This document shows, one piece after another, positions 1,025 to 13,870 of a stretch of DNA of 64,000 bases. The stretch covers positions 434,001 to 498,000 of the forward strand of contig NZ_CP059399.1 in NCBI RefSeq assembly GCF_013744875.1. The letters are read 5' to 3'. The notes beneath the pieces are model-generated. The model did no database searches. It was given only the letters and a program-made list of their open reading frames with translations, and had not been told where the DNA came from. Origin of the DNA: Nocardia huaxiensis (GTDB lineage: Bacteria > Actinomycetota > Actinomycetes > Mycobacteriales > Mycobacteriaceae). Within the stretch, counting starts at the first letter, position 1; each line of letters starts with the position of its first letter. Made by a program: the position numbers and the translations under genes.

Positions 1025-1786
1025 CTACGCCCGCCGGATCGGCTGCCGCGTAGGAACCGGATCATTCAGCAGGAAGTCGGCGATCAGCGGATAAACCCGC
1101 TCCGGCTTCTCCATGACCAACAGATGTGAGGTCCCGGGGACAACGGCCAACTCCGAATCCGGAATCCCGCGATAAAGCTCCAGCGTGTGCTCCAGCGCAA
1201 TCGCGTCATCGTCCCCGGAAACCACCAGCGTGCGCGCCCGCACCCCGGCCAGATCCGCGCTGGTGAGTGTCGGCTGCGTCCGCCCCATCTCGATAATCTT
1301 CGCGACCACCACCGGATAGTGGTCCTCCCCATCGGGTGACACCTCCCCGTACCGGCTCCCCAGAAATTCAATGGTCTCCGGACTGTCGAACCCGTCGAGC
1401 ACCCCCGGCAGCATCCCCTCATGGTGGAAGTTCCCGCTGATCAACACCAGCTTCCGCACCAGATCAGGCCGCTTCAACGCCACCATCAGCGCCACATTCG
1501 CCCCATCACTGTGCCCAACAAGATGCGCAGCCTCCCCAACCACCTTCTCGAGGAACGCGATCATGTCATCAGCCATGCCGTCATAAGTCATAGGCCCATC
1601 GACATCCGGCGTATGCCCATGCCCCCGCCGATCCACCCGATATGCGTGAAACCGATCCACCAACATCGGCAGCGCCGGCTGGAACATCCGAGAATCCACA
1701 AACCCCCCGTGCAACAGCACCAGCGGCTCCCCATCCCCGTGGACGTTGTACCAAGTCGCCACATCACCGAGTTGCACGTTCACCAT
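1025..1786 (-). CDS. Alpha/beta hydrolase
   Basis: The 253-residue protein has a standard alpha/beta-hydrolase order: an oxyanion-hole segment LLHGGF at about residues 24-29, RRGHGHTPD after strand 4, the nucleophile elbow GHSDGAN with Ser93, an acid residue near VVSGDDD, and a C-terminal GTSHLLVMEKP carrying the catalytic His. No signal peptide is present, so it is cytoplasmic. The substrate cannot be read from the sequence; small-ester, epoxide or lactone hydrolysis are all possible. It converges with the DUF5988-like gene, ending 9 bases from it. Confidence 0.85.
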   Translation of the reverse strand: MVNVQLGDVATWYNVHGDGEPLVLLHGGFVDSRMFQPALPMLVDRFHAYRVDRRGHGHTPDVDGPMTYDGMADDMIAFLEKVVGEAAHLVGHSDGANVALMVALKRPDLVRKLVLISGNFHHEGMLPGVLDGFDSPETIEFLGSRYGEVSPDGEDHYPVVVAKIIEMGRTQPTLTSADLAGVRARTLVVSGDDDAIALEHTLELYRGIPDSELAVVPGTSHLLVMEKPERVYPLIADFLLNDPVPTRQPIRRA

Positions 1787-1855
1787 GAGCTTCAGTGTGG
1801 CGCGTGCCCTACGTCACCCTCACATCGGGCGGCGCGATCCGGTGAGCCGAGGCTG

Positions 1856-2365
1856 TCAGCCTTCGTATCCGAGAAGATCCTTCAAGTGGCGGGCGCGCTC
1901 CAGTTCTCCGAAGTCACGTAGCGCGCAGATGAATTTGAACCCGAGATCGTCACCGTCCGGGTCGTCGAGGCAGTTGTAGATCCAGTTCAGCGTGAACTGG
2001 ACGACCCCGGCATCATCGACTGCGCGCACATCATCCAGACGCATTCCCTCACCATCGATGACGCAACGGACACCAGGGCAAGTTCGGGCCAATAGTTCAG
2101 CCAGGTAAACCGAGTACCCCAGCAGTTTGACCGCGCGCAGGGAAGGCGCTTCTTCGGTGTCTTCGGCCATCGATTCGACGACCCCCTGAACAAACAGGAC
2201 ACTCAGATCGGACCCATCGAGGCGTGCACCTTCCGCCCTGGCCCAATCAAGGAATCGATGCGCTTCAGCCAGAAGTTGATCACTCACGCCGGCATCGTAT
2301 GCGCCGCGTCCGACGAACCCGTTCGTAGTGAGCGACAGTTGTTGCAACTCAGTAGATTTCGGCAC
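1856..2365 (-). CDS. Hypothetical protein, 169 residues
   Basis: Not recognised. It is an acidic, soluble protein with predicted mixed alpha/beta content. A central part reads LLGYSVYLAELLARTCPG, and the second half has a DDVRAVDDAGVVQFTLNW strand region. The C-terminal DFGELERARHL helix resembles those of small immunity or SMI1-like proteins, but that is only an impression. There is no signal peptide. It is the first of several short unrecognised genes in the 1.8-7 kb accessory stretch. Confidence 0.6.
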   Translation of the reverse strand: MPKSTELQQLSLTTNGFVGRGAYDAGVSDQLLAEAHRFLDWARAEGARLDGSDLSVLFVQGVVESMAEDTEEAPSLRAVKLLGYSVYLAELLARTCPGVRCVIDGEGMRLDDVRAVDDAGVVQFTLNWIYNCLDDPDGDDLGFKFICALRDFGELERARHLKDLLGYEG

Positions 2366-2611
2366 ATACAGCCGTTGACTCTAGGCATGATTCATGTGAT
2401 AGCGTTCCGGCGGCAGCGGGGTCCACCCGCTCGGGGAGGAATTCAGAGCGCGCGACCGACAGTTCCAGCGATTCACCCATTCTGTCGGCAGCTTCCACAT
2501 GCCATGCGGGTCATGGCTATTCACAAATACGGCGGCCGCCGCACCGGCTCACGGAACGGCGGTTCCGCTCTGGTCCACTCGGAACATCGAATACAGCAAA
2601 GGGCAAATGCA

Positions 2612-3229
2612 GTGAAGCTCAACCGACTTGCCGTCACAGCATTGATCGCGGCGGCGAGCACGGCGATCGTGGCAGGTGTTGCCAATGGCGCACCGGCGGA
2701 ACCGACGCACGGAACCGACTCCGGAGTCGACTACGTGGTGTCGAGCCCCGCAGCGGGAGAGTCCTCGATCCGAGTGGCGGTAACCGGCGGGCACTTCGCC
2801 ATGAATGGTGACTCCCTGGATATCAGCAACAATTCTGGTCAGCTGATCGGCCAGGTCCCGTTGACTTTCCGCATGGCCGATCGGGTCGTCTCGTTCACGG
2901 CGCAGCTCACGGATTCGGATCAAGCTGTCACGATTGCCTCAGCCGGGTCAACCGAAACAGCCGCTGACATCGCGCAGGAGCCCCTGACCTCCGAACAGCG
3001 AATGTACTGCTGGAACGCCACTCTCGGCACCACGGTCGGCGTGATAATCGGAATACTGATCGGCGCTCCGTTCCTGGTGCTCCCTGGAATGCTGGCCGGA
3101 ATCATCATCGGAGGCCTCGTAGGCATGGGTATCGCGATGAGCGCCCCCATGCCCGGAATGCCGTCCGACGCAGATCTGATCTCCAAGTACTTCCGGTGCC
3201 AACAGGGGATGAGCCCCTTCGGCGGATAA
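2612..3229 (+). CDS. Secreted protein with glycine-rich hydrophobic C-terminal segment
   Basis: The frame is open from 2258, but the GTG at 2612 gives a clean signal peptide: KLNR, a hydrophobic run through about residue 24, then ANGAPAEP with a signal peptidase site after ANGA. The mature part has a beta-rich domain (about residues 50-110; core PLTFRMADRVVSF), then two cysteines and a glycine-rich membrane-like stretch (about 135-185; IIIGGLVGMGIAM), ending in SKYFRCQQG. The upstream AAAGGG is a weak ribosome site. The same architecture and recognisable core recur in the gene at 43061-43792, so the two appear paralogous. Function unknown; an envelope location is inferred. Confidence 0.65.
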   Translation: MKLNRLAVTALIAAASTAIVAGVANGAPAEPTHGTDSGVDYVVSSPAAGESSIRVAVTGGHFAMNGDSLDISNNSGQLIGQVPLTFRMADRVVSFTAQLTDSDQAVTIASAGSTETAADIAQEPLTSEQRMYCWNATLGTTVGVIIGILIGAPFLVLPGMLAGIIIGGLVGMGIAMSAPMPGMPSDADLISKYFRCQQGMSPFGG

Positions 3230-3258
3230 ACCACACACCCCGAGTTGGGTTGTGTGGT
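3230..3258 (+). terminator. Hairpin terminator after the secreted-protein gene
   Basis: Directly after the stop codon, ACCACACA (3230-3237) pairs with TGTGTGGT (3251-3258). Internal CCC/GGG bases extend the stem. A G/T-rich tract follows instead of a pure T run. Confidence 0.5.
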
Positions 3259-3329
3259 GGGGTTGTTGGGGTGGAGACCCGAGATGTCACATAGCGCGGC
3301 TGTGCCCGAATGAATGCGAGGAAGGCGTT

Positions 3330-3773
3330 ATGGATCGCGAGACTTTTTTGACCCGAATCTCCATGGGGATCCTCGCGATCGTGCTGGGTGTGCTGGGCAT
3401 CGTTGTCGCTGTCTTCTGGGGATTGTCGATCCAAGGCAAGACCATGTGCGGGTTCGACGAGATGCGATCGGGCGACAAATGCATCGTTACCCGAGGCGGC
3501 GAATCGGAGACCCGGAGCTATGACGAACAGAAGGCGACAGGACCTGCGGAGCCGGTCTTGATCGGGGCCATAGCCGGATTCGTGGTCTTCGGCGGAGCAA
3601 TCTGGATCCTGACGACCATACGAGGGAAGAACCCCCAGCCCAGCGCCGCGAACGTGACGCCAACCCCTTTGGACTACTACAACATGCAACGGTATGGCAT
3701 AGCTCTGCCACACCAGCCGGCTCCGCCTGCAGAAACACCGCCGCCCGGTCAGTGGCGTGCCGAGCAGCGGTGA
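3330..3773 (+). CDS. Hypothetical two-TM membrane protein
   Basis: The ATG at 3330 is preceded by GAGGAAGG and gives 147 residues. A first membrane helix spans about residues 11-33 and a second about 73-95. They flank a short extracytoplasmic loop with two cysteines (MCGF and KCIV) that could form a disulfide. The C-terminal tail is proline-rich and probably cytoplasmic. No family was recognised. It follows the secreted glycine-rich protein in the same direction, 100 bases downstream and after a hairpin, so it probably has its own promoter. Confidence 0.6.
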   Translation: MDRETFLTRISMGILAIVLGVLGIVVAVFWGLSIQGKTMCGFDEMRSGDKCIVTRGGESETRSYDEQKATGPAEPVLIGAIAGFVVFGGAIWILTTIRGKNPQPSAANVTPTPLDYYNMQRYGIALPHQPAPPAETPPPGQWRAEQR

Positions 3774-3873
3774 ACGGGTCGAACAGCGACGACTCCACTC
3801 GGGCCAGTTCGGTTCGCGCGGGCGTAGGTGATCATGTAGTTGCGAAGTTCGGGTCCAATGACCTGGCGCAGAC

Positions 3874-4419
3874 ATGAGCCGGCAGGTGGGGAAGGCTGGA
3901 TTGGCGCAAGTGGTTCACGCCTTGACCGATCCCCGGTTCGGTGTCTGTTTCGACAACGTGGAATGGATGGAGCTCGCCAAACCTGTTGTGGCGCTGGGAG
4001 GTGACTGGCCTGCCGCGCTCGCGTTGGCCGCTATGACGTCGATCCGGCGCCCGAGTGTGGATCAAGCTGTGCGGCACCTGCGGGTGCAGTCCGGACAGGA
4101 TATGGGCGCACTGCCGGCTCCGGGATTCTGGGATGCAGTCTGCGGGTTGGTCGGACGTTCGTGGCGGCTCGGGATTCTCGACGAGTTCACCGCAACGGTG
4201 CGGCTGGACCGCGTGTGGTGGCACATCCGCGATCATGAACCTCAGGATCGAGCTGAGGAGCTGATCTGGGAAGGCATGGCCTGTTTCGAACTCGACCACT
4301 TCGTCGACATGGACATGACAAATCGGGCGCTGGCTCTACTGGTTGAGGCAGACCAGCTAATCCCCGACAACGCAGTCGACACCGCCTTCTGCGAAACCGT
4401 TCTGGAGACCTTCCTTTAG
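3874..4419 (+). CDS. Hypothetical protein, 181 residues
   Basis: Not recognised. It is a soluble, largely helical protein rich in Trp and acidic residues, with segments such as PGFWDAVCGL and RVWWHIRDHEP and an acidic C-terminus. No signal peptide or membrane segment is visible. The isolated accessory position and a composition like the 1856-2365 and 4826-5308 proteins suggest a group of small intracellular proteins of unknown role. Confidence 0.5.
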   Translation: MSRQVGKAGLAQVVHALTDPRFGVCFDNVEWMELAKPVVALGGDWPAALALAAMTSIRRPSVDQAVRHLRVQSGQDMGALPAPGFWDAVCGLVGRSWRLGILDEFTATVRLDRVWWHIRDHEPQDRAEELIWEGMACFELDHFVDMDMTNRALALLVEADQLIPDNAVDTAFCETVLETFL

Positions 4420-4825
4420 GGCACACGCTCGAAATCGAGTACCGGATGGTGCCCTTTCGCCAGTAGACCCGCCGAGACTCCCTCCAAGCCCCCGCGTTGC
4501 GGCAGTGCAGGATGCTCGCAGGAGGGGTGGAGGGGGTGGGATCGAGCGTCTACTCCGCTCCCTGAGGCGTACCAGAGGGACCGTCCAGCCACCCCCCTTT
4601 GCCCCAGGCCGCCCAAGGCAGACACTGCGGGCCGGAACCCGAGCGGGCGCCGCCTACCCTAACCCGCCCGCCGACAAGGCTGCGGTGCACCTTCTCGATC
4701 CGTTGCAGCGGCTGGAAGATCAAATACAGTCGGCCCCAGCGATCTTCGACGCCGATCGTATGGCTGCATCGCTCAGCGCGGGAAGCGGCATGACAGTGTG
4801 CAGTCCGGACGCCCAACCGCAAACG
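4420..4825. other. 406-bp region with one doubtful minus-strand ORF
   Basis: No convincing gene was found. The only readable minus-strand frame is 4550-4822 (90 residues). It contains VEDRWGRLYLIFQPLQRIEK, which looks protein-like, followed by a low-complexity Gly/Arg tail. It has no obvious ribosome site and may be a remnant. The remainder looks non-coding. Confidence 0.3.
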
Positions 4826-5308
4826 TCAGGGCAGCGGCGCACCCGTCCGATGAACATAGATCTTCGCTTCGGCGGTCGCGGCCAGTTTGAGCAGACGATC
4901 GAGCTTGTCTACCCCGATGAAGCCCAGGGTGAACCCGTCCCCGTCGACATAGACGCCGACGACAGCGACACCGAGCGTTAGACAGCGGTCGGCCAAGGGC
5001 CACAGGAACTTCCGGAGATCGTCGGGATCCCAACGGCCCTGGTCATTCCAGTCGTACCACTCCCACGTCAGTTCTGGCGGGCAGAGCGGCAACCGCTCCA
5101 GATAGCTCCGGATCTCCGGCGGATCCGACTTCCAATCGCAGTAGGTCAAGCAGTATCCACGCAGGGAGTCGACGAGCACGCCCTCCGGACCTTGATCATC
5201 GTCGTCGTCCAGCACAGCCGCCAAGTCCGAACGCGATTCATCTACAAACGGGGACCACAGTTCGACGATCTCGAACAGGGCCGCCCGTTGCAGTTCTCCA
5301 ATAGCCAT
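4826..5308 (-). CDS. Hypothetical acidic protein, 160 residues
   Basis: Not recognised. It begins MAIGELQRAALFEIVELW and has an Asp-rich DDDDDQG patch near residue 35. A Trp-rich centre (LTWEWYDWNDQGRWDPDDL) precedes a C-terminal strand region, VAVVGVYVDGDGFTLGFIG. The size and acidity suggest a small cytoplasmic protein. It is transcribed toward the 3874-4419 gene. The codon pattern is ordinary for the genome. Function unknown. Confidence 0.5.
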   Translation of the reverse strand: MAIGELQRAALFEIVELWSPFVDESRSDLAAVLDDDDDQGPEGVLVDSLRGYCLTYCDWKSDPPEIRSYLERLPLCPPELTWEWYDWNDQGRWDPDDLRKFLWPLADRCLTLGVAVVGVYVDGDGFTLGFIGVDKLDRLLKLAATAEAKIYVHRTGAPLP

Positions 5309-5442
5309 GACCGGAATCTATCGATATGTACCGACACATAACCATGCCTCCATCGTGGCCATGGTTTGTTCAGCAGCCCGTCGCCTCAGCCGTCCGGCCG
5401 TGCCGAACGCACTCAACTCGGCAGAATAGTATGTTCCGAGAT

Positions 5443-5840
5443 CTACGCGGGGAGGTCGACGAACGGGAAGATATCTCGGAACTGGTGCAGGACATCGGGT
5501 CTGCGGCGCAGGGTTTCGAGGGCCGAGCCTCGGCTGACCGGTGGGTCGTAGACCTTGAGGCCGCGGTGGAAGGCTATGCCGTAGAGCGCAGCATCTTCCT
5601 GCGGTGAGAGTTCATACGGCGGTCTGAATCCGAGGGGACACCGGATACCTTCGAGATGTCGTCGACGCTGGCCAGGTCGAAGATGTATTGCGGGATGTCT
5701 TCCATCGCATTGGTAATGATGACGTGCTCACACCATGTCCGCAGTTCGGCCATGTCGATTACCTGATCGAACAGACAGCTGAGAACGAAACCGATTGTTC
5801 CGCAGTCCTCGTGCGTCAGGCCGGTCACTGTTGTAGCCAC
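5443..5840 (-). pseudogene. Frameshifted conserved hypothetical gene
   Basis: A GTG start at 5840 has a good upstream CAGGTGA. It opens MATTVTGLTHEDCGTIGF and runs in frame through the ASVDDISKV segment. After about 5652 the first frame degenerates and stops at 5574. The +1-shifted frame continues coherently from CPLGFRPPYELSPQE through YGIAFHRGLKVYDPPVS to DIFPFVDLPA and a TAG at 5443. The span is 398 bases, one short of a multiple of three, so a single missing base near 5650-5655 would restore a protein of about 132 residues. Either the gene is mutated or the base call is wrong. Function unknown. Confidence 0.55.
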
Positions 5841-6098
5841 GAATCACCTGTCTCATTGATCCAGCAAGATCACCTTACGAGGTAGCGCCTGTAGCTGGAA
5901 CTCGGTAGTAGCCGCCGCCGCGGTTCCGACGACTGGGCGCGGATGTTTCGCCGGATGTCGTACCGGCCTGTTGACGTCCGGCGGCGTCGAGATCCCGGGC
6001 GTCGGTGCGTTGGTCTACGACAGCAGACGATTGCTATGTCGAAATCGCAACCGAGGAGGTGGTTTTCGACCATATCGAACTTGGTGGCGAGCCAGCCA
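5841..6098. other. Gap with coding-like remnants only
   Basis: No intact gene. On the minus strand the bases near 6000-6100 read LATKFDMVENHLLGCDFDIA in one frame, then lose coherence. This suggests decayed coding sequence rather than a control region. Confidence 0.25.
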
Positions 6099-6308
6099 TC
6101 ATGGTGGAACGAGTGCTCGGGTGGTGACGGGTATGTGTGCGAGGGCCATTTCACCGACGTGGCGGCCTTCGACGACGATCGGCTCGCCGGTGTCTGTATG
6201 TCCGCAGACACGTGCCGTGAACTGCGTGGAGGAGTTGCCCTTCTCCTCACCATCTCTGTCGCAGCGGTAGCACGCGGCCGGGGGGCCGCCGATCGGCTGG
6301 AAACTCGA
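6099..6308 (-). pseudogene. Decayed small cysteine-containing ORF without a start codon
   Basis: The minus frame is open for 70 codons, ending at 6099, and reads like a protein: PAACYRCDRDGEEKGNSS, then TARVCGHTDTGEPIV, then EGRHVGEMALAHIPV. There is a CxxC pair and a third Cys. No ATG, GTG or TTG lies near the beginning. A GTG in the neighbouring frame just upstream suggests one inserted base in a TTTCC run near 6300. Best read as a frameshifted or truncated gene. Confidence 0.35.
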
Positions 6309-6357
6309 TCACTTCCGCTGTCTCGGATGGTGCATCCGGTCCGGGTAATGGGAATAT

Positions 6358-6540
6358 TCAACCATTCTGGTGGCGGATTTCGAGGAGATAGGTTCGGCGG
6401 CTGCAGGATTCGGCGGTGTCGCCGTTGCCCGCGACGCAGTTGCGGTGGCTCCACAGCATGCTGCGGATGGTTCCGGCGTACTCCATCGCCTGATGGAACT
6501 GGCCGCGTTCGTGTTTCAACACCGAGCGTTCGTAGGTCAT
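6358..6540 (-). CDS. Small hypothetical protein, 60 residues
   Basis: The frame opens MTYERSVLKHERGQFHQ and continues with an amphipathic helix before a Cys/Arg-rich end. It starts 6 bases after the stop of the 6547-6744 gene, so the two could be cotranscribed. No family was recognised. It lies among decayed fragments, so a truncated product is possible. Confidence 0.4.
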   Translation of the reverse strand: MTYERSVLKHERGQFHQAMEYAGTIRSMLWSHRNCVAGNGDTAESCSRRTYLLEIRHQNG

Positions 6541-6546
6541 CGCTGG

Positions 6547-6744
6547 TCACGCTGCCCGGTGTTGGCCTCGGTGCCACCGGCCTGCTCCGCCGGAGGCGGG
6601 GACTTCGAGGTATCGCGAGCCGTCGAGGTAGGCGAGTCGGAGAAATCGGGCGTTGCTCGCCCGATCACCTCCGAGGAACCCCCAGACGGCCACTGTTGCG
6701 CACAATACGGTGAGCGCCACGAGCACCCAAGTCTCCCAAGACAT
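6547..6744 (-). CDS. Small membrane protein, 65 residues
   Basis: The ATG at 6744 follows a GAGGAG ribosome site. The protein has one membrane helix (about residues 3-24; WVLVALTVLCATVAVWGF), then a basic cytoplasmic tail with RFLRLAYLDGSRYLEV. Not recognised. It is divergent from the HTH regulator at 6902, and the two promoters share about 157 bases. Confidence 0.45.
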   Translation of the reverse strand: MSWETWVLVALTVLCATVAVWGFLGGDRASNARFLRLAYLDGSRYLEVPASGGAGRWHRGQHRAA

Positions 6745-6901
6745 TTCGCACTCCTCGCAATGCATGCTCGATAGCTGTATTTCGATGCACATCCAGGATG
6801 ATGTGAGAAAGACGTCCCTGGCGGACAACACGTCAAATACGATGGATGTCCTATGCGGACATGTCCGCAGCAATCGTCGCCCGGATAGCGAGGCTAACGA
6901 A

Positions 6902-7804
6902 ATGGCCGGTTTGACGGTCTCTCGCATGGATTTTGGCAATTTCATGAAAGGGCTGCGCGAGAAAGCGCCGCACCCTGCACAGGGCGCGGCGGCGCTGCAT
7001 CTGGAGATCTCCAGGCAGGTGATAATTCGACTGGAGGAGGGGACACCCACGAAGCTCGGCACGATCCACATCAGGAGCCTGCTGGACTTCTACGAGGCCA
7101 CGCCGGACGAACGGACCGCCGCGCTTGCGCTTTGGCAAGAGGTGCGAGATCAGGATAAAACCGCTAAGGCGCAAGGGAATTCGAAAGGTTTCTGGAAGGC
7201 GTACTCGGACCAGGTCGCCCCGAACTTCCCGAAGTTCCTTCGGCTGGAGGGTGCGGCCGACAGGATATTTTCACATCAGTTGGTGATCGTTCCGGGCATG
7301 CTTCAAACTCCGGATTACCGCCGCGCAATCATACGAATGACCGAGCCGGGATTGTCGGCGGTCGATGTCGAACGCCGCGTCGAACTCACCGCGCGTCGCC
7401 AAACACGTTTGGATGAACGCGATTTCAGCCTGAATGTCGTTCTATCCGAGGCGGTGCTGCGTCATCAGCCCGGCGTTCCGTCGGTGATGGCGGCACAACT
7501 TCGATCGATGATCGAGGTCGGCGAGCGCGACAATGTCAGCATCCGTGTCGTTCCGTATTCGGTGGGCCCGCATGCGGGTTTGGCGATTCTCGCGTTCACC
7601 CTGCTCGGGTTTCCGAAGGGAGCCAGTGGGCTGTCGCTTCCGCCGGTTGTCTTTGTCGAGGGGGCGATCGGCAGCATGTTTCATGAGCATGCCGACGAGG
7701 TGGGCCAATATCAGCAGGCCATCGATGGCCTGCGGGCTGTAGCGTTGACAGAGCAGGGTACGAGAGAGCTCCTGCTTCAAGTTGCGAAGGAGTACGCGGC
7801 GTGA
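6902..7804 (+). CDS. HTH regulator with DUF5753 domain (Scr1-type antitoxin-like)
   Basis: The ATG at 6902 was chosen because it begins just before the HTH; the frame itself is open further upstream. An N-terminal XRE-like helix-turn-helix (about residues 8-70) is followed by the long DUF5753 domain, recognisable by LVIVPGMLQTPDYRRAII, VELTARRQTRL, a VLSEAVLRHQPG segment and the YQQAIDGLRAVAL end. Such proteins are paired with a downstream DUF397 protein in Streptomyces and Nocardia and control that partner, or act with it as a toxin-antitoxin-like switch. Here the DUF397 gene overlaps the stop by 4 bases, which supports that pairing. Confidence 0.85.
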   Translation: MAGLTVSRMDFGNFMKGLREKAPHPAQGAAALHLEISRQVIIRLEEGTPTKLGTIHIRSLLDFYEATPDERTAALALWQEVRDQDKTAKAQGNSKGFWKAYSDQVAPNFPKFLRLEGAADRIFSHQLVIVPGMLQTPDYRRAIIRMTEPGLSAVDVERRVELTARRQTRLDERDFSLNVVLSEAVLRHQPGVPSVMAAQLRSMIEVGERDNVSIRVVPYSVGPHAGLAILAFTLLGFPKGASGLSLPPVVFVEGAIGSMFHEHADEVGQYQQAIDGLRAVALTEQGTRELLLQVAKEYAA

Positions 7805-7989
7805 AGAAGTCTGTCCGGGGCGAGTGGTACAAATCGAGCAGGTCGGAGGGGGCCAAACAATGCGTGGAGGTCTACCACGCTGACGATGCGGTCGGAGTCC
7901 GCGACTCGAAGAACCCCGGAGGCCCAGAGCTTTTCTTCACCGGCGAGCAGTGGGACCGGTTCATCGCCGGACGGATCTGGGAACACTGA
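7801..7989 (+). CDS. DUF397 domain protein
   Basis: This 62-residue protein uses a GTG start overlapping the upstream stop. It has the DUF397 signature: WYKSSRS near the start, CVEVYHADDAVGVRDSKNP in the middle, and a final WDRFIAGR. DUF397 proteins are the small partners of DUF5753 regulators (BldB/AbaA-like and Scr2-type); their exact biochemical role is unsettled. A perfect hairpin terminator follows 12 bases after the stop. Confidence 0.88.
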   Translation: MKKSVRGEWYKSSRSEGAKQCVEVYHADDAVGVRDSKNPGGPELFFTGEQWDRFIAGRIWEH

Positions 7990-8001
7990 CCCGAACAGCA
8001 C

Positions 8002-8030
8002 AACGCCCCCGAGTGGAGCTCGGGGGCGTT
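8002..8030 (+). terminator. Perfect 12-bp hairpin terminator
   Basis: AACGCCCCCGAG (8002-8013) pairs exactly with CTCGGGGGCGTT (8019-8030) around a 5-base loop, followed by GTTTGTTCTT. It ends the HTH/DUF397 operon. A near-identical hairpin ends embB at 9992-10020. Confidence 0.85.
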
Positions 8031-8077
8031 GTTTGTTCTTCGGTCAGAAGACTCGCCTCTTGTCCGGTGACCACCAC
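8002..8077 (-). repeat. Displaced copy of the embB 3' end plus terminator (left repeat)
   Basis: These 76 bases match 9992-10067 with about nine differences, three of them in the hairpin loop. Read on the minus strand, the copy encodes VWWSPDKRRVF and a stop, against GWWSPGKMRVF and a stop at the true embB end. The match stops within a few bases of the stop codon of the nucleotidyltransferase gene at 8083. The two copies therefore bracket the AbiE-like cassette as direct repeats. Confidence 0.8.
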
Positions 8078-8082
8078 ACTTC

Positions 8083-8889
8083 TCAGAGTCCCGCGTGTGC
8101 ACGGATGAGGGAGGCGAGCCGGGCGGTGGAAGCCTTGCCTGTAAGGGCTTCACGCCAGCGGCCCTGGTCGAGGTTTTGGACCAGTAGGCGCAAGGCCACG
8201 ATGGTCTCACCGCGGGTGCTCCGGGCGGTGGGCTCGAGTTTCCAGGTACGCAGTGCAGGGCGGTGCTGGTGGGTGATCTCGAACAAGGTGGCCAGGTCTG
8301 CGACGTCTTTGCCTTCCATGCGGGACTTCCAGGTCAACGCCTTGAGAATGACGGCTGCCTCGACATCAGGTATCGGTACCCGAAACTGGATCTGCTCAGT
8401 CGATTTCAGATCGACAGTGGCGTTGATCAGCAGCGCATCCGCTTCGATGGCGAGGTGCAGGCCGGGGGCCGAGTCCATGGTCCTGTTTCCGATCTCGACA
8501 CTGCGATCGGTCATGGTGCGACCAGGTCGGCCGTAGGCGACAAGGATGTCCACATCGAGCTGTCCGGTGCCGCTGGCGCGGCTGTAGCGGTTACCCGATT
8601 GCAGCGTGTATCCCAGCCGCAGGAGATGTTCATCGAGGTGCGCCTGAGTGGCAACCAGAGTTTGATTGTCGATTCCGGCGTCGGCATCGGCGGTGCCTCG
8701 TAACTGCCAGTCCTGCAAGGGATATGCGTGCTGGAGCATTTGGACCATGTGACCGCCGATGATCCGGTAGGTACTGGCATCCAGGTGTGCGGTCGCGGAG
8801 TGGAGATCGGCTAGGGCGAGGAATCCTCGATCGGAGGCGTTGCTGGTGGATCGGATATGGATATCGACGTTGCGCAGGTCAGGCACCAA
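8083..8889 (-). CDS. AbiEii-like nucleotidyltransferase (toxin candidate)
   Basis: The 268-residue protein has the minimal-nucleotidyltransferase pattern of the AbiEii/DUF1814 family: IIGGHMVQML (Gly45-Gly46), the acidic pair in GTADADAGI (Asp68, Asp70), a third Asp in LDVDILV (Asp112-Asp114), and the family's C-terminal EGKDVADLATL segment (Lys194, Asp195, Asp198). AbiEii proteins act as growth-arresting toxins of type IV toxin-antitoxin/abortive-infection systems, several by nucleotide transfer to tRNA. The gene overlaps the upstream wHTH gene by 11 bases, the usual antitoxin-first order. The whole pair lies between duplicated embB ends. Confidence 0.75.
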   Translation of the reverse strand: MVPDLRNVDIHIRSTSNASDRGFLALADLHSATAHLDASTYRIIGGHMVQMLQHAYPLQDWQLRGTADADAGIDNQTLVATQAHLDEHLLRLGYTLQSGNRYSRASGTGQLDVDILVAYGRPGRTMTDRSVEIGNRTMDSAPGLHLAIEADALLINATVDLKSTEQIQFRVPIPDVEAAVILKALTWKSRMEGKDVADLATLFEITHQHRPALRTWKLEPTARSTRGETIVALRLLVQNLDQGRWREALTGKASTARLASLIRAHAGL

Positions 8890-9871
8890 AGGCTCCGGTT
8901 GCGATTTCGGTCTTCAGCCGGTCGGCAGCTTCGCGGGCGGTGGTGGATCGACTGGTGTGTAACAGGTCCCACCAGGTGATGGCCGCGTCCGCCAGGTGAT
9001 GGCGGTCGGTGCGGGGATTCGCGGAAAGCATTGCAGCGGTGTGCATCACGGTGGGATCTTCGGGTACAGCGACTGACATTGTGGCGTTTTCGGGGTCTGC
9101 GGGGGAGAACCCGATTGGTGTGAAGTCGATGATTTCGGGCACGTACAGCCGGACACTGGTCGGCAATTGCCACGGTGCGTAGGTGTCCGCCGCGATGTCC
9201 CCGGAGACCACCGAGGGAAGTTCGAGCTCGTCGAGCAGCTGGTGTGCTTTGGTCACCTGTGTCGAGGGGTCGTCGAGCCCGTACCAATGGCTGACGGTCC
9301 CGCCAGGTCCAGGGTAGTCGTGGCCCCACATGTCGAGCGCGCCGTCAGCGGCGAGCGTGCCGTTCCGCGTCTGGGTGACGCCTGGCATTTTGCGTAGTGC
9401 GTGCGACACGGCTTGTTGACTGATGCCGATGATGGTCGACAGCTCGTTTTGCCGTAGCGGGCGGGTGGAGAGGGCCAGGACTCGCAGAATCGCCCACTGC
9501 CCCCACGCTGGGCGTCTGTCCGAGGACCACGACTGAGGTTCAGGTGCTTCAGTGAGCACCTGGCCTGCGATGACGACGCGCGGCGGATCTGTAGTGACCA
9601 GATCGAACGCACCGGCTGCGGCTGCCGCAACCGATTCGTCGCTCGCGGAACTTGCGATGTAGAGCAGGCGAACCTGAGAAGGATGCGACTGCTGGGCAGC
9701 CATTGCAGGCGCTATCGTGGCCAAGGTCAAGCGCCGCTGAGTTGCTTTGATCTGGACTGCGACAACGCGGTCGTCAGGTGTTTTGAGCAAGAGTTCTTCG
9801 TGAGTTCCCGCAGCGACGTGGACGCCGGCATGCCGCAGCAGGGACAGTAGATCACTGCGCACATCGACCAC
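8879..9871 (-). CDS. AbiEi-like winged-helix protein (antitoxin candidate) with nuclease-like N-terminus
   Basis: In this 330-residue protein, residues 123-165 form a winged helix-turn-helix (LRQNELSTIIGISQQAVSHA). The C-terminal half has a LYVPEIIDFTPIGF segment and a final helical region. Its position directly before, and overlapping, the AbiEii-like gene matches antitoxin-first AbiE operons, whose AbiEi proteins repress their own promoter. The first 110 residues resemble a restriction-endonuclease-like fold: ELLLK, then Asp33-Asp34, then VAVQIKAT with Gln40-x-Lys42 where an active enzyme would have Asp or Glu. That part is inferred from pattern only. Confidence 0.55.
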   Translation of the reverse strand: MVDVRSDLLSLLRHAGVHVAAGTHEELLLKTPDDRVVAVQIKATQRRLTLATIAPAMAAQQSHPSQVRLLYIASSASDESVAAAAAGAFDLVTTDPPRVVIAGQVLTEAPEPQSWSSDRRPAWGQWAILRVLALSTRPLRQNELSTIIGISQQAVSHALRKMPGVTQTRNGTLAADGALDMWGHDYPGPGGTVSHWYGLDDPSTQVTKAHQLLDELELPSVVSGDIAADTYAPWQLPTSVRLYVPEIIDFTPIGFSPADPENATMSVAVPEDPTVMHTAAMLSANPRTDRHHLADAAITWWDLLHTSRSTTAREAADRLKTEIATGAFGA

Positions 9872-9991
9872 GGATGAACCCCTAGCTCAGATCCATAAAG
9901 GTGTCAAACAAGCCTATCAGCCAAAAGGGCCTTGGCGTTTGTTTGACCATTCCATCTTAGCAAGGTATAAGCCTATCCCGGCAAGCGCGAA

Positions 9992-10020
9992 AACGCCCCC
10001 GAGTTGGACTCGGGGGCGTT
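9992..10020 (-). terminator. embB terminator hairpin
   Basis: A perfect 12-bp stem (9992-10003 with 10009-10020) and 5-base loop lies 13 bases after the embB stop. On the minus strand it is followed by TTTCGC. Confidence 0.75.
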
Positions 10021-10067
10021 GTTCGTTCTCCGGTCAGAAGACTCGCATCTTGCCGGGGGACCACCAG
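9992..10067 (-). repeat. embB 3' end plus terminator (right repeat)
   Basis: This is the second copy of the 76-bp sequence at 8002-8077. It contains the last embB codons and stop (10034-10067) and the hairpin AACGCCCCCGAG (9992-10003) with CTCGGGGGCGTT (10009-10020). The gap between the cassette's first gene (9871) and this repeat is AT-richer than its surroundings and probably holds the cassette promoter. Confidence 0.8.
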
Positions 10068-13000
10068 CCGGAGCGGGTTTCAGTGCTGGTTTGGAGTTCG
10101 GCGGGTTTCGCGTCGGAGTAGTACTGGGTGTACTTCTCCAAAGAGCCCCAGTCCCTCGCCCAGTCGTCCTTCAGGTAGGTGGGGATGGTTTGGGAGGAGG
10201 CCAGCATCTCCGAGAAGCCCAGGGGGCCACCGAATTCCTCGGCCTGCCAGGTGTTGGTGGAGGTGATGGCGAGGGGGCGGTCGGGGAGGATGCGGTAGTT
10301 GGGGACGGTGGCCACGCCGTTGAGGTGGTTGAACGGTTGCTGGCAGGGGAATTGGAGGCCGACTGCCCAGTCCAGGAGGACGGGTTGGTCGTGGCCGATC
10401 ACGCTGTCGAGGGTTTGCATCTTCGGCATGCGGGGCGGGGTGAAGGCGAGCCACTGGTCGCCGATGAGGATGGGGTCGCGGGCGAAGATGCGGACCACGT
10501 CGGCGTTGGCGGGGATTTGGTCCATGGGGACGCGGGCGTTATGCGGGGCGGGGTGAAGGCGAGCCACTGGTCGCCGATGAGGATGGGGTCGCGGGCGAAG
10601 ATGCGGACCACGTCGGCGTTGGCGGGGATTTGGTCCATGGGGACGCGGGCGTTGCGCCAGGAGGGGGCGGGGCCTACGTCGAGGGGACGGTATTTGCCGA
10701 GGTAGTCGACGGTGCCGTCCGGGTTGCGCCTGCCGTATTCGAGGAAGAGTTCCTGACCGTAGGTCATATTGCCGACCTGGTCGAAGGACATGACTCGACC
10801 CGCGATGGAGAAGACGATCAAAGGCTTGTCGGCTGCGCGGGCGGGCAACTCGTACCAGCTGGAGGTGAGGACCGCGGGCTGCTGCACGCCGTCCTGCCAG
10901 GAGCCCATGACGGGAGTGGTCGCCGGGTCGAGGCCGAAGGGGAGTTTCACGGTGGAGCCGTTGACGCCTTCGGCGCCCTTGCCGCCGCCGGTGCCGGCGT
11001 TCTGGCCCTCTTCGAAGGCGGGGCCGACGGTTTGCGTGGCGGTGTTGCCGGTGCCGGGCTTCACTTCGACATTGTCGGCGTCGAGTTTCTCGGGAACTCC
11101 GTTGGGGGAGAAGCCGACCGGGCTCACGCCGGCGAGCGGATCGCCGTCCTTGGGCGGGTTGGCGGGGTCGATGATCGGGGTCAGGTTGTAGCCGTTGACA
11201 TCCGATTCCACGAGCACGTCATTGGCGAGACCGCAGGCTTTGCCGCCGAGGGCGTCGAAGTTGCTGCGGGCCAGCGAGTACGCGGGGTACTGGGATATCG
11301 CGCCCTTCGCCATGGACAGCACCTCGATGGCCACCATGAGGGCGGCGATCACGGTCAGCGGCACAGCGGCGAGGGCAGTGAGGCCCTTGCCGTTGTTGCG
11401 CAACAGGATCCACACGACCACCGAGGCGATGGCGCCGAGTGCGACCAGGATGAGCGCCTTCTTCGACGAACCGTCGTTCATCACCGTCCGCAGGGCGAGC
11501 GCTGAAGCTGCGAGCACGGGCAGCACGATGGCCGCCCAGCCGAGGATCAACCGGCTCGTCGCCATCCACTTCGGTGTCGGCCCGTCCTTCACATACCCTT
11601 CGCGCAGCGCATGCCAGGCGACCAGCGCCAAGGCCAGCCCGAACAGGATGAGCATGATCGTATTCGACTGGTGCCCTTGAAAACTGATGCGCTTGTCGTA
11701 CCACGGCACGCCGTAGCTGGACACGTACCAGTAGCCGTTGATGCCCGAGAACGCCAGCGCCAGCGTGAACAGCAGCCCGGCGAGGAACACCGACCGGTTC
11801 TTGGGTGACCGCAGCGCAGTGGTCGACACCGCGACCGCCGTCACCGCCGCCAGCGAACCCGCGATGCCCGCGTACGCGCCGAAGTGGTGCGTCCACTTGG
11901 TCGGGTTGAACATCATGAAGAAGATGGTTCCGAAGACCACGCCCATGAGCCGCCACGTCGGCGCGCTCGCGACGCCCGCCACCTGCCGCCGGCGCAGCAG
12001 CACCAGCATGGTGGTGACCAGGCACAGGATCATGACCAGGAAGGCGAAGCGGCGCGCCAGCGACCCGTCGACGGTCTCGACGAACAGGTAGTAGTAGCGC
12101 AGATAGTCCTTGTACCACTCCAGGTTCGGGCCGGTGGCCTGGCGAACCCGGTTGGCCTCCATGATCCCGGAGAAGGTCTGGTCACCGAAGACGACCACCA
12201 GCACCAGGACTCCGGCGGCACCGATCGGTGCGAGCAGAGCGGTGGTGCCGAACTGCCGATGCCGTTTCACCACGATGCGCACGAGCGGCCGGATTCCGGC
12301 GAGCAAGGCCGCCACACACATCAGACCGGTCGGTGCGGCAGCCAGCGTGAACGCCGCGATCAAAACGGCCACAGCGGCGGGCAGCAAACGCGAAGTGGCA
12401 ATGGCCCGTTCGATGGAAACCCAGGTCAGCAGCGCACCCAGCGCCACGATCGGCTCCGAGCGCAGCCCGTTGTCGTAGGGCAGCCAGAAGGCCAGGAACA
12501 CCAGCCCACCCGTCCACAGCGCCACCTTGGAGCGAGCGACCGCGTTCCCCAGCCGCGGCACCACCTCGCGGCTGATCACCAGCCAGCACAGAATTCCGCA
12601 GAGCAGCGCGGGAATTCGCACCCACGGGCTGGCCGTGGAGATCTCGGCGAACGCCTGAATGACGTAGTAGTACCAGCCGAACGGCGCTTCCGGCACACCG
12701 AACCAGCGGAAGTAGTTGGCCATGTATCCGGCGTCCGGCGCCACCCGGACCATGGTCAGGATGTAGCCGTCGTCAGAGGTGTTCGCGCCGATGAAATGCC
12801 ACAGCAGCAGTGTGCCGATGACACCGCCGTCCGCCCAGGTGGGCTTCAGCCAGTGCGCCGGCAGAATGCGCCGATGCCCGCGCCCGTCACTGGTGTCGAG
12901 CACGCCGAGCGCGCCCATGGCCAGCAGCGTCAGCAGCACCGCCGCGATAATGGCGACCAGTTTGATCACGGTCGGCGTCGAGGAGAATCGCGAATCCACC

Positions 13001-13644
13001 GTCATGTGGAACGAAAGCCCCTGCGGCACATCGCCCTTCATATCGGTGAACACGCCGACCACCTGCGGCCGTAGATCCCCGAGCAGCTGACCGCCCAGCG
13101 GTTCGGTGACCAGTTCGCGCCCGCCGTCCGCGGTGGGCCGCTCGACGGTGCGGGTCAGCCCCTCGAACGTCGCGGCGGTCCGCGTGCTGTCCGAGGCGAT
13201 GACGATCTGCGAGCACCCGGCCATATCGGCGCGCGGCGCGGTCGCCACCACCGCATTGCGATCGAGGACGTCCACGCTCTCGCCCGACACGCGCACGAAC
13301 ATGGCCTCGAGGTCCGCGCCCTTGCCCTGCGGCGGCGCGGTTGCCAGCAGAATGCCGCCGCGCGGATCGAGTTGCTCGACCGCGGAACAGGGGATGGTGA
13401 CGCTCAGGTCGAGCGGCACCTGCGACATGAGCGGCGCCTGCACATTGCCGAGCGTCCCGTGCTGCGGCCAGTCGAGCACCGCGGTGGTCTGCTTCACCGG
13501 CAGGAACGGGGTCGCTAGTGCGAACAGCGCACCCAATAGACCAGCGACGATGGCGATCGTCTTCGCGACGCGGAAGTCGCGCTGGGTCACTCGGGGCTCG
13601 GCCGGGATATCCGGCTTCGTCAGAACAGCAGAGGCGTCGGGCAC
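10034..13644 (-). pseudogene. embB: EmbB-like arabinosyltransferase, frameshifted by an internal duplication
   Basis: This is a GT-C membrane arabinofuranosyltransferase that extends cell-wall arabinan from decaprenyl-phosphoryl-arabinose. EmbB affinity shows in TAPPQGKGADLEAMF, VDVLDRN, SPVGFSPNG and the SGWWSPGKMRVF end. Catalytic Asp291-Asp292 lie in GANTSDDGYI. The GTG start at 13644 precedes a first membrane helix at residues 27-50; many helices and a soluble carbohydrate-binding end follow. A perfect 113-bp tandem duplication (10428-10653) shifts the frame, so translation leaves the true frame after LAFTPPR near residue 1034 and stops at 10399. About 131 native C-terminal residues are replaced by 47 unrelated ones. 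Removing one copy restores a protein of 1165 residues. Confidence 0.85.
10428..10653. repeat. Perfect 113-bp tandem duplication inside embB
   Basis: Bases 10428-10540 are repeated exactly at 10541-10653. Both copies begin ATGCGGGGCGGGG and end CGCGGGCGTT. Because 113 is not a multiple of three, the second copy changes the frame of embB. The complete identity of the copies points to a recent event or an assembly error. Confidence 0.95.
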
Positions 13645-13741: not shown

Positions 13742-13832
13742 CGTCATCCCGGCGCGTTTTTGGCCGGGATCCACACGGGGGACGGAGATCGTCGAAGGTG
13801 TGGATCCCGGCCAAAAGCATGCCGGGATGACG
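13742..13832. repeat. Palindromic interspersed repeat, copy 1
   Basis: A 91-bp element lies in the 226-bp embB-embC gap. Arm CGTCATCCCGGC...GGCCGGGATCCACAC pairs with GTGTGGATCCCGGCC...GCCGGGATGACG with about three mismatches over 35 bases. A further half arm, CCCGGGATGACG, follows at 13842. Related copies are at 51588-51678 and 59756-59845. The rest of the gap shows nothing else. Confidence 0.85.
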
Positions 13833-13870
13833 GGCTGGGGTCCCGGGATGACGGGGTGGGGGCCGTCCCT

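Follow-up and report, generated by a model that had tools for sequence, protein, structure and literature searches.

The 3' ends of tRNA genes and of protein-coding genes are classical attB sites. Old gene ends that are left behind are also found in the type VI secretion system (T6SS) loci of Vibrio cholerae, where they are attributed to homology-facilitated illegitimate recombination (HFIR) (PMC5361080). In toxin-antitoxin systems of the AbiE type the regulator AbiEi carries its winged helix at the N-terminus (PMC7319586). Here we analysed a stretch of 64,000 nucleotides of the Nocardia huaxiensis genome (NZ_CP059399.1, positions 434,001 to 498,000 of the forward strand; hereafter the window, whose own coordinates are used throughout), in which an operon of two genes, termed Ei and Eii for their likeness to AbiEi and AbiEii, lies between the 3' end and terminator of the arabinosyltransferase gene embB and a decaying second copy of the two. 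An earlier note, made from the sequence alone, had read this arrangement as a cassette that entered at the embB 3' end, and this reading is partly supported.

The direct repeat comprises positions 8002-8076 and 9992-10066 (75 nt, 88% identical, nine differences, spacing 1990); the bases at the 76th position (8077 and 10067) differ as well. The repeat described in the earlier note is confirmed: reading both copies showed that each holds, in register, the final 10 codons of embB with the stop, and then the terminator hairpin. The right copy (9992-10067, minus strand; stem-loop at 9994-10018) reads WWSPGKMRVF before the stop, and the left copy (8002-8077, minus strand), an apparent embB-end relic with its terminator, reads WWSPDKRRVF; the terminator stem is identical between them and the loop differs. 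The terminator pattern CGCCCCCGAG-N5-CTCGGGGGCG was found twice in the window with up to three mismatches, as compared with a mean of 0.01 in shuffled sequences. The space between the copies is taken up by two overlapping open reading frames (ORFs) on the minus strand (8879-9871 and 8083-8889), so that the AbiEi-like and AbiEii-like genes are indeed alone there, and the Eii stop lies 5 nt from the left copy, within the few bases that had been claimed. Flanking repeats were scored as the similarity between the 330 nt before Ei and the 120 nt after Eii for 23 pairs including that of the window; L120, L127, L128 and L129 (broken or partial) and L148 and L151 (no Eii found) were left out of these counts. 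The window scored 57, which was reached by none of 5500 random placements of similar spacing, placed anywhere, at gene ends or not. The duplicated embB end around the gene pair is a real, well-defined structure.

Ei (8879-9871, minus strand, 330 aa) is a putative AbiEi-like antitoxin and autoregulator, whose fold matches, middling in score, are nuclease-like for residues 1-97, winged helix for 121-189 and nucleotidyltransferase-like for 200-330; a PDB sequence search with Ei gave helix-turn-helix matches, the best to a transposase (E 1.9e-4) and the rest weaker. Eii (8083-8889, minus strand) is a putative AbiEii/MenT-type nucleotidyltransferase toxin of 268 aa if read from the TTG at 8889; its database entry and its nearest database homologue, from N. 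wallacei (85%), are both 267 aa long, consistent with a start at the GTG at 8886. The PADLOC AbiEii model matched Eii with an E-value of 0.005 and matched 11 of 21 homologues at E <= 0.01. Eii had no Pfam match at E <= 0.001 and, in the PDB sequence search, retrieved KorB (E 0.62) and AbiGII (E 0.91) alone; its fold gave matches to MenT and JHP933. Before Ei lies a putative inverted-repeat operator (9903-9947, minus strand) with the arms GTCAAACAA (9947-9939) and TTGTTTGAC (9911-9903), 36 nt apart from start to start, and a TTGACA-like -35 element was recognised by eye inside the second arm. At least one arm precedes Ei in 14 of the 23 pairs, and both arms, 34-36 nt apart, in nine. The gene order is that of AbiE systems, bicistronic with the regulator gene first, and in the window the genes overlap. 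The PADLOC match, the fold matches and the promoter inverted repeats support the AbiE-like reading of the earlier note, and Ei/Eii looks like an AbiE/MenAT-type toxin-antitoxin unit. Ei would repress its own promoter via the paired GTCAAACAA/TTGTTTGAC operator and would counteract Eii as in a type IV-like AbiE/MenAT pair. Eii would be a nucleotidyltransferase toxin, probably modifying tRNA or a similar target, and the pair would protect against phage or stabilise the DNA that carries it.

As assembled, embB is split into a main ORF of 1081 aa (10399-13644, minus strand; Pfam Arabinose_trans, Arabino_trans_N and a partial Arabino_trans_C), the last part of the gene being out of frame, and a C-terminal ORF of 177 aa (10034-10567, minus strand; Arabino_trans_C, 1.1e-79), which bears the right-hand gene end. 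The split arises because a perfect 113-bp tandem duplication (10428-10540 and 10541-10653), real or an assembly error, shifts the frame 0.4 kb upstream of the gene end; a sequencing or assembly error may be the source of the break. In the closest named relative, N. acididurans (L001), embB ends in WWTPGKMRVF, and relative to it both amino-acid changes between the repeat copies fall in the left copy, which looks like a gene-less embB end decaying outside the terminator stem. Two nucleotide states in the coding end are common to both copies and missing from N. acididurans, so the copies probably split after that divergence, within the window lineage. Compared in 200-nt bins, embB is 80-94% identical to that of N. 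acididurans along the gene and 94% in the last piece; as there is no identity jump near the end, the joined right copy looks native. The earlier reading that an old end was left behind agrees with the relic-like left copy; the claim that the cassette carried in a replacement embB end is not supported.

The best relatives of the window embB were from Nocardia. For comparison we used 80 other embB loci, 73 of them from Nocardia, with a flank of 6 kb (134 nt in L047, where the contig ends in long G runs directly behind embB and has the look of an assembly artefact). Neither Ei nor Eii was found within the flank in any of the 80 loci (tblastn, E <= 1e-3). That a different cargo would turn up at this point, as the earlier note had predicted, was borne out in other species: a Uma2-family gene (PF05685, E 6.8e-19) lies at most 340 bp behind embB in 11 of the 80 loci (L005, in two pieces, L007, L008, L022, L030, L031, L032, L037, L038, L042 and L046); it stands farther from embB in L014 and L016 and is partial in L009 and L034. 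Five of the 11 (L007, L008, L037, L038 and L042) have a second copy of the embB terminator beyond Uma2, and no such repeat was scored in the other six. The scan for duplicated terminators had given matches in 13 of the 80 loci at E <= 0.01, eight of which were kept; those in L005, L012, L029, L047 (poly-G contig end) and L067 were judged weak or artefactual. In several Nocardia the terminators around Uma2 are alike within species and unlike between species.

Among the five loci labelled N. cyriacigeorgica the Uma2 gene is present in three (L031, L038 and L042) and missing from two (L027 and L035). In the L038 genome (G047) the terminator of this locus was found at two places, 679 nt apart around Uma2, and in the L035 genome (G045) at one, so that in this species the repeat is not scattered. 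In L042 a relic embB coding end, which aligns with the L031 arrangement over 97 nt, follows the new end and terminator and runs to the start of the Uma2 gene. The L042 terminator loops around Uma2 (+19 to +57 and +770 to +810 behind embB) appeared by eye to be mutually reverse-complementary, as if flipped. In L021 and L004, again by eye, apparently the Uma2 tail alone is left between two terminators, as expected after deletion, and in L009 and L011 the start of a ribbon-helix-helix-like gene was seen by eye behind embB. Uma2 may be ancestral at embB with repeated loss, deletion between direct repeats being an accepted route to empty sites (PMC2884548). In the sample of that study about 10% of the small variable segments were flanked by direct repeats, for which deletion between the repeats is one explanation, and the window repeats may signal loss as well as gain. 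Of 148 Nocardia genomes one (G068) contained the terminator pattern of the window, and embB is not present at that place. No case of a single embB end running straight into the DUF397 gene, which the earlier note had expected in some strains, was seen among the 80 loci, where neither the DUF397 nor the DUF5753 protein of the window matched directly behind embB; weak DUF5753 matches lie 1.9-2.7 kb downstream of embB in two loci (L019 and L031).

The pair itself occurs at other sites. At E <= 1e-3 Ei matched 19 of 150 Nocardia genomes, while for Eii the count was 19 of 148; adjacent window-like pairs were present in 10 Nocardia genomes, in two of which (G115 and G078) one gene is broken or cut. 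These pairs stand behind ychF (L122 and L123), gatB (L125), a deacetylase gene facing leuS (L124) and another gene (L126), and beside an integrase gene and tRNA-Lys ends (L119). The genes that we take to be ychF, gatB, leuS and polysaccharide deacetylase were named by eye, without a search. At E <= 1e-20 Ei was found in 10 of 397 sampled genomes of the order. Eii was found in 26 of 72,556 plasmid records, 22 of them from Rhodococcus and eight of the 26 typed as conjugative; it was unmatched in 50,697 phage records. On two conjugative Rhodococcus plasmids (L216 and L219) a gene of a recombinase family is close to the pair, whose products are annotated as hypothetical proteins only.

Two further pairs stood out by their flanks, namely L119 with a score of 37 (reached by none of the 5500 placements) and L123 with 19 (reached by 27 of 5500), whereas the remaining 20 pairs scored at most 12, the control level. 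Distant pairs had no flanking repeat adjoining them, and the plasmid pairs scored (7 of the 26 records) were at control level with 8-13. Pairs between gene-end copies accordingly number three of 23 with the window, one of them (ychF, L123) on weaker statistics. In L119 the terminator and the last 18 nt of tRNA-Lys stand on both sides of the pair, which is oriented opposite to the tRNA; beside it are genes with the Pfam families Phage_integrase (PF00589, E 2.6e-6) and HTH_17. What we take to be the tRNA-Lys 3' end beside this pair was recognised by eye, as ARAGORN called tRNA-Lys at 1706-1781 only. The surrounding region (L119:1706-12536) holds the tRNA-Lys, two tyrosine integrases of which one is partial and one complete, the HTH_17 (xis-like) gene and the tRNA-like copy uncalled by ARAGORN; together with the pair, framed by end copies, this island has the look of integrations stacked on each other. 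In L123 the last ychF codons and the stop recur 45 nt behind Eii (VVEFRFNV and VVEFRIHV), and L122, also at ychF, shares by eye the start of this junction and not the rest. For an empty-site comparison the ychF end was recovered in 27 of 30 loci, and none of the 27 shares downstream DNA with the sequence behind the pair in L122 or L123. The DNA behind the ychF stop (L156-L185) is unlike between most of the 27 Nocardia loci, save for a recurring GCGTCTGCGAAGAAGTAG-like motif, and the region is possibly another insertion hotspot. At the gatB site (L125) no gene-end relic was seen; in 21 of the 29 other loci the converging downstream gene lies within 1.5 kb of gatB, so that the site is free of the pair in these relatives.

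The best explanation, to which we give slightly less than an even chance, is that HFIR brought the AbiE/MenAT-type pair to the embB end. Donor DNA from a close relative, which carried the pair together with the 3' end of an embB gene and the terminator of that gene, would have paired by homology with the resident embB on one side, while the other side would have been joined without homology about 10 codons before the resident embB stop. The joined end would then serve embB, and the old end and terminator would remain, drifting, as the left repeat. The same type of event together with later losses would account for the Uma2 cargo and the scars at embB elsewhere. The varying join points, the lack of a recombinase found at embB in a crude scan and the recurrent relic gene ends follow the pattern that PMC5361080 ascribes to HFIR. 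In the window an apparent relic of the resident end is present.

Several points weigh against HFIR. The donor is missing, and no empty embB site with the terminator of the window was found in the 148 Nocardia genomes scanned for the pattern. The relic starts are similar in the window and in L042. Finally, the L119 pair lies beside an integrase gene, and in Streptomyces the PAISt modules are bounded by bacA 3' end copies of 138-141 bp and moved by a tyrosine recombinase (PMC4057263).

These last two points favour the explanation that comes next, possible though less probable than HFIR. Either a tyrosine recombinase that uses gene 3' ends as attB would once have inserted a larger element at embB, which decayed to the addiction pair between attL and attR in the manner of a cis-mobilizable element (CIME), or the small unit would have been moved in trans by an integrase encoded elsewhere. 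Direct repeats flanking at a gene 3' end, as such decayed elements have them, are present in the window; moreover, an AbiE system is reported to contribute to the stability of an integrative and conjugative element (ICE) of Streptococcus (PMC11062541). Against it, the boundaries vary from case to case, the cargo directly behind embB in the 11 other loci is a Uma2 gene, and no integrase gene lies between the window repeats, in line with what the earlier note had seen. Regular-expression matches to tyrosine recombinases were obtained in six of the 80 embB loci and once in the window, and none of the seven had a Pfam family at E <= 0.01, in a crude scan in which serine recombinases were not sought. 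Besides the match in L119, this Pfam follow-up covered the matches in the 80 embB loci, the window, L118 and L120 (none of 10 held); further regular-expression matches lay in L124, L128, L150, L151 and L152.

It is improbable that the embB tail and terminator were first doubled in tandem within the lineage and the pair was inserted between them later or otherwise brought in. Such a local duplication would suit the two nucleotide states shared by both copies and the second, perfect tandem duplication upstream in embB, but it leaves unexplained why copies of gene ends or terminators bracket genes elsewhere, both in other species and at further sites. It is very improbable that strong terminators on either side of a gene in a convergent gene pair merely came to resemble each other by convergence or gene conversion, which the species-wise likeness of the terminators around Uma2 would suit: the window repeat takes in 10 embB codons with their stop, aligned in register, and its score was never reached by the control placements.

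More than the pair distinguishes the window from N. acididurans. A stretch of 8.2 kb (about 1848-10029), which holds both terminators, has no counterpart in L001, where the shared sequence picks up again about 70 nt past the end of embB, before an alpha/beta hydrolase gene (window 1025-1786; Pfam). Beyond Ei and Eii this stretch has about 6 kb more with DUF397, DUF5753 and DUF6630 genes, and from 8.2 kb as against about 70 nt it follows that the window site gained, or N. acididurans lost, more than the pair. The DUF397 gene (7801-7989, plus strand; PF04149, 1.3e-19) converges on the left terminator, which is positioned to serve it too, and ends at 7989, just past it; before it lies a DUF5753-domain ORF (6653-7804, plus strand; PF19054, 1.5e-50), the real start of which is probably internal. 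Between two emb genes, positions 13742-13863 contain a 35-nt inverted repeat (91% complementary, 21 nt apart) and a 21-nt direct repeat (CCGGGATGACGGG...), which looks like a small palindromic repeat element.

These observations suggest a turnover of such small cassettes at core-gene ends for which the cassettes supply no enzyme themselves. A wider proposal, which we put forward as rather unlikely, is that in Nocardia AbiE-like pairs, Uma2 genes and perhaps other small genes for defence or toxin-antitoxin functions belong to a common pool of cassettes that lack a recombinase and repeatedly settle behind the ends of core genes, with the gene tail and terminator hairpin as the exchange joint, each entry replacing the host gene end and leaving the old one as a scar, so that stacked ends would record the turnover of cargo. 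Searches for mobile defence genes usually start at integrases and tRNA sites and would miss a 2-kb unit behind a core gene. A unit that supplies or keeps a core-gene end would leave a readable scar, which could be surveyed via repeated gene ends downstream of core genes. As filled, empty and scarred versions of the embB site exist within one genus, the mechanism is directly testable there. Our literature search found no paper joining Nocardia, embB and toxin-antitoxin systems and, judged by title, none on Nocardia genomic islands at embB or on Uma2 toxin-antitoxin systems at this site; the literature on insertion hotspots, toxin-antitoxin systems and convergent core genes concerned by title partly ICEs and mobilomes of other bacteria.

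With the AbiE type IV systems (AbiEi/AbiEii of S. agalactiae and Serratia) the window pair shares the bicistronic order, with a putative winged-helix regulator first and a putative nucleotidyltransferase-like protein second, and inverted repeats at the presumed promoter; it differs in that Eii has no Pfam match and that Ei has an extra N-terminal nuclease-like fold (of middling score) and its winged helix in the middle of the protein. The MenT toxins of M. tuberculosis (MenT1 Rv0078a, MenT3 Rv1045 and MenT4 Rv2826c) are 9-20% identical to Eii over the aligned parts. As in the V. cholerae T6SS loci (PMC5361080), there would be one homologous anchor, a new module taken in and an old 3' part displaced downstream as a relic; there the effector module's own upstream region acts as the anchor, whereas in the window a core cell-wall gene would play this part, with cargo independent of that gene. 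Likewise, a duplicated protein-gene 3' end delimits PAISt and its related islands in an actinobacterium, and with this case at bacA insertion at such an end, in the view of the earlier note an unusual niche, is not without precedent; PAISt (PMC4057263) is 674 kb long, encodes a tyrosine recombinase of its own and has a palindromic core of 8 bp, whereas the window unit has 2 kb and no recombinase seen. The toxin-antitoxin type and each of the proposed routes are thus of known kinds, and it is their combination with a repeatedly used core-gene end that is new.
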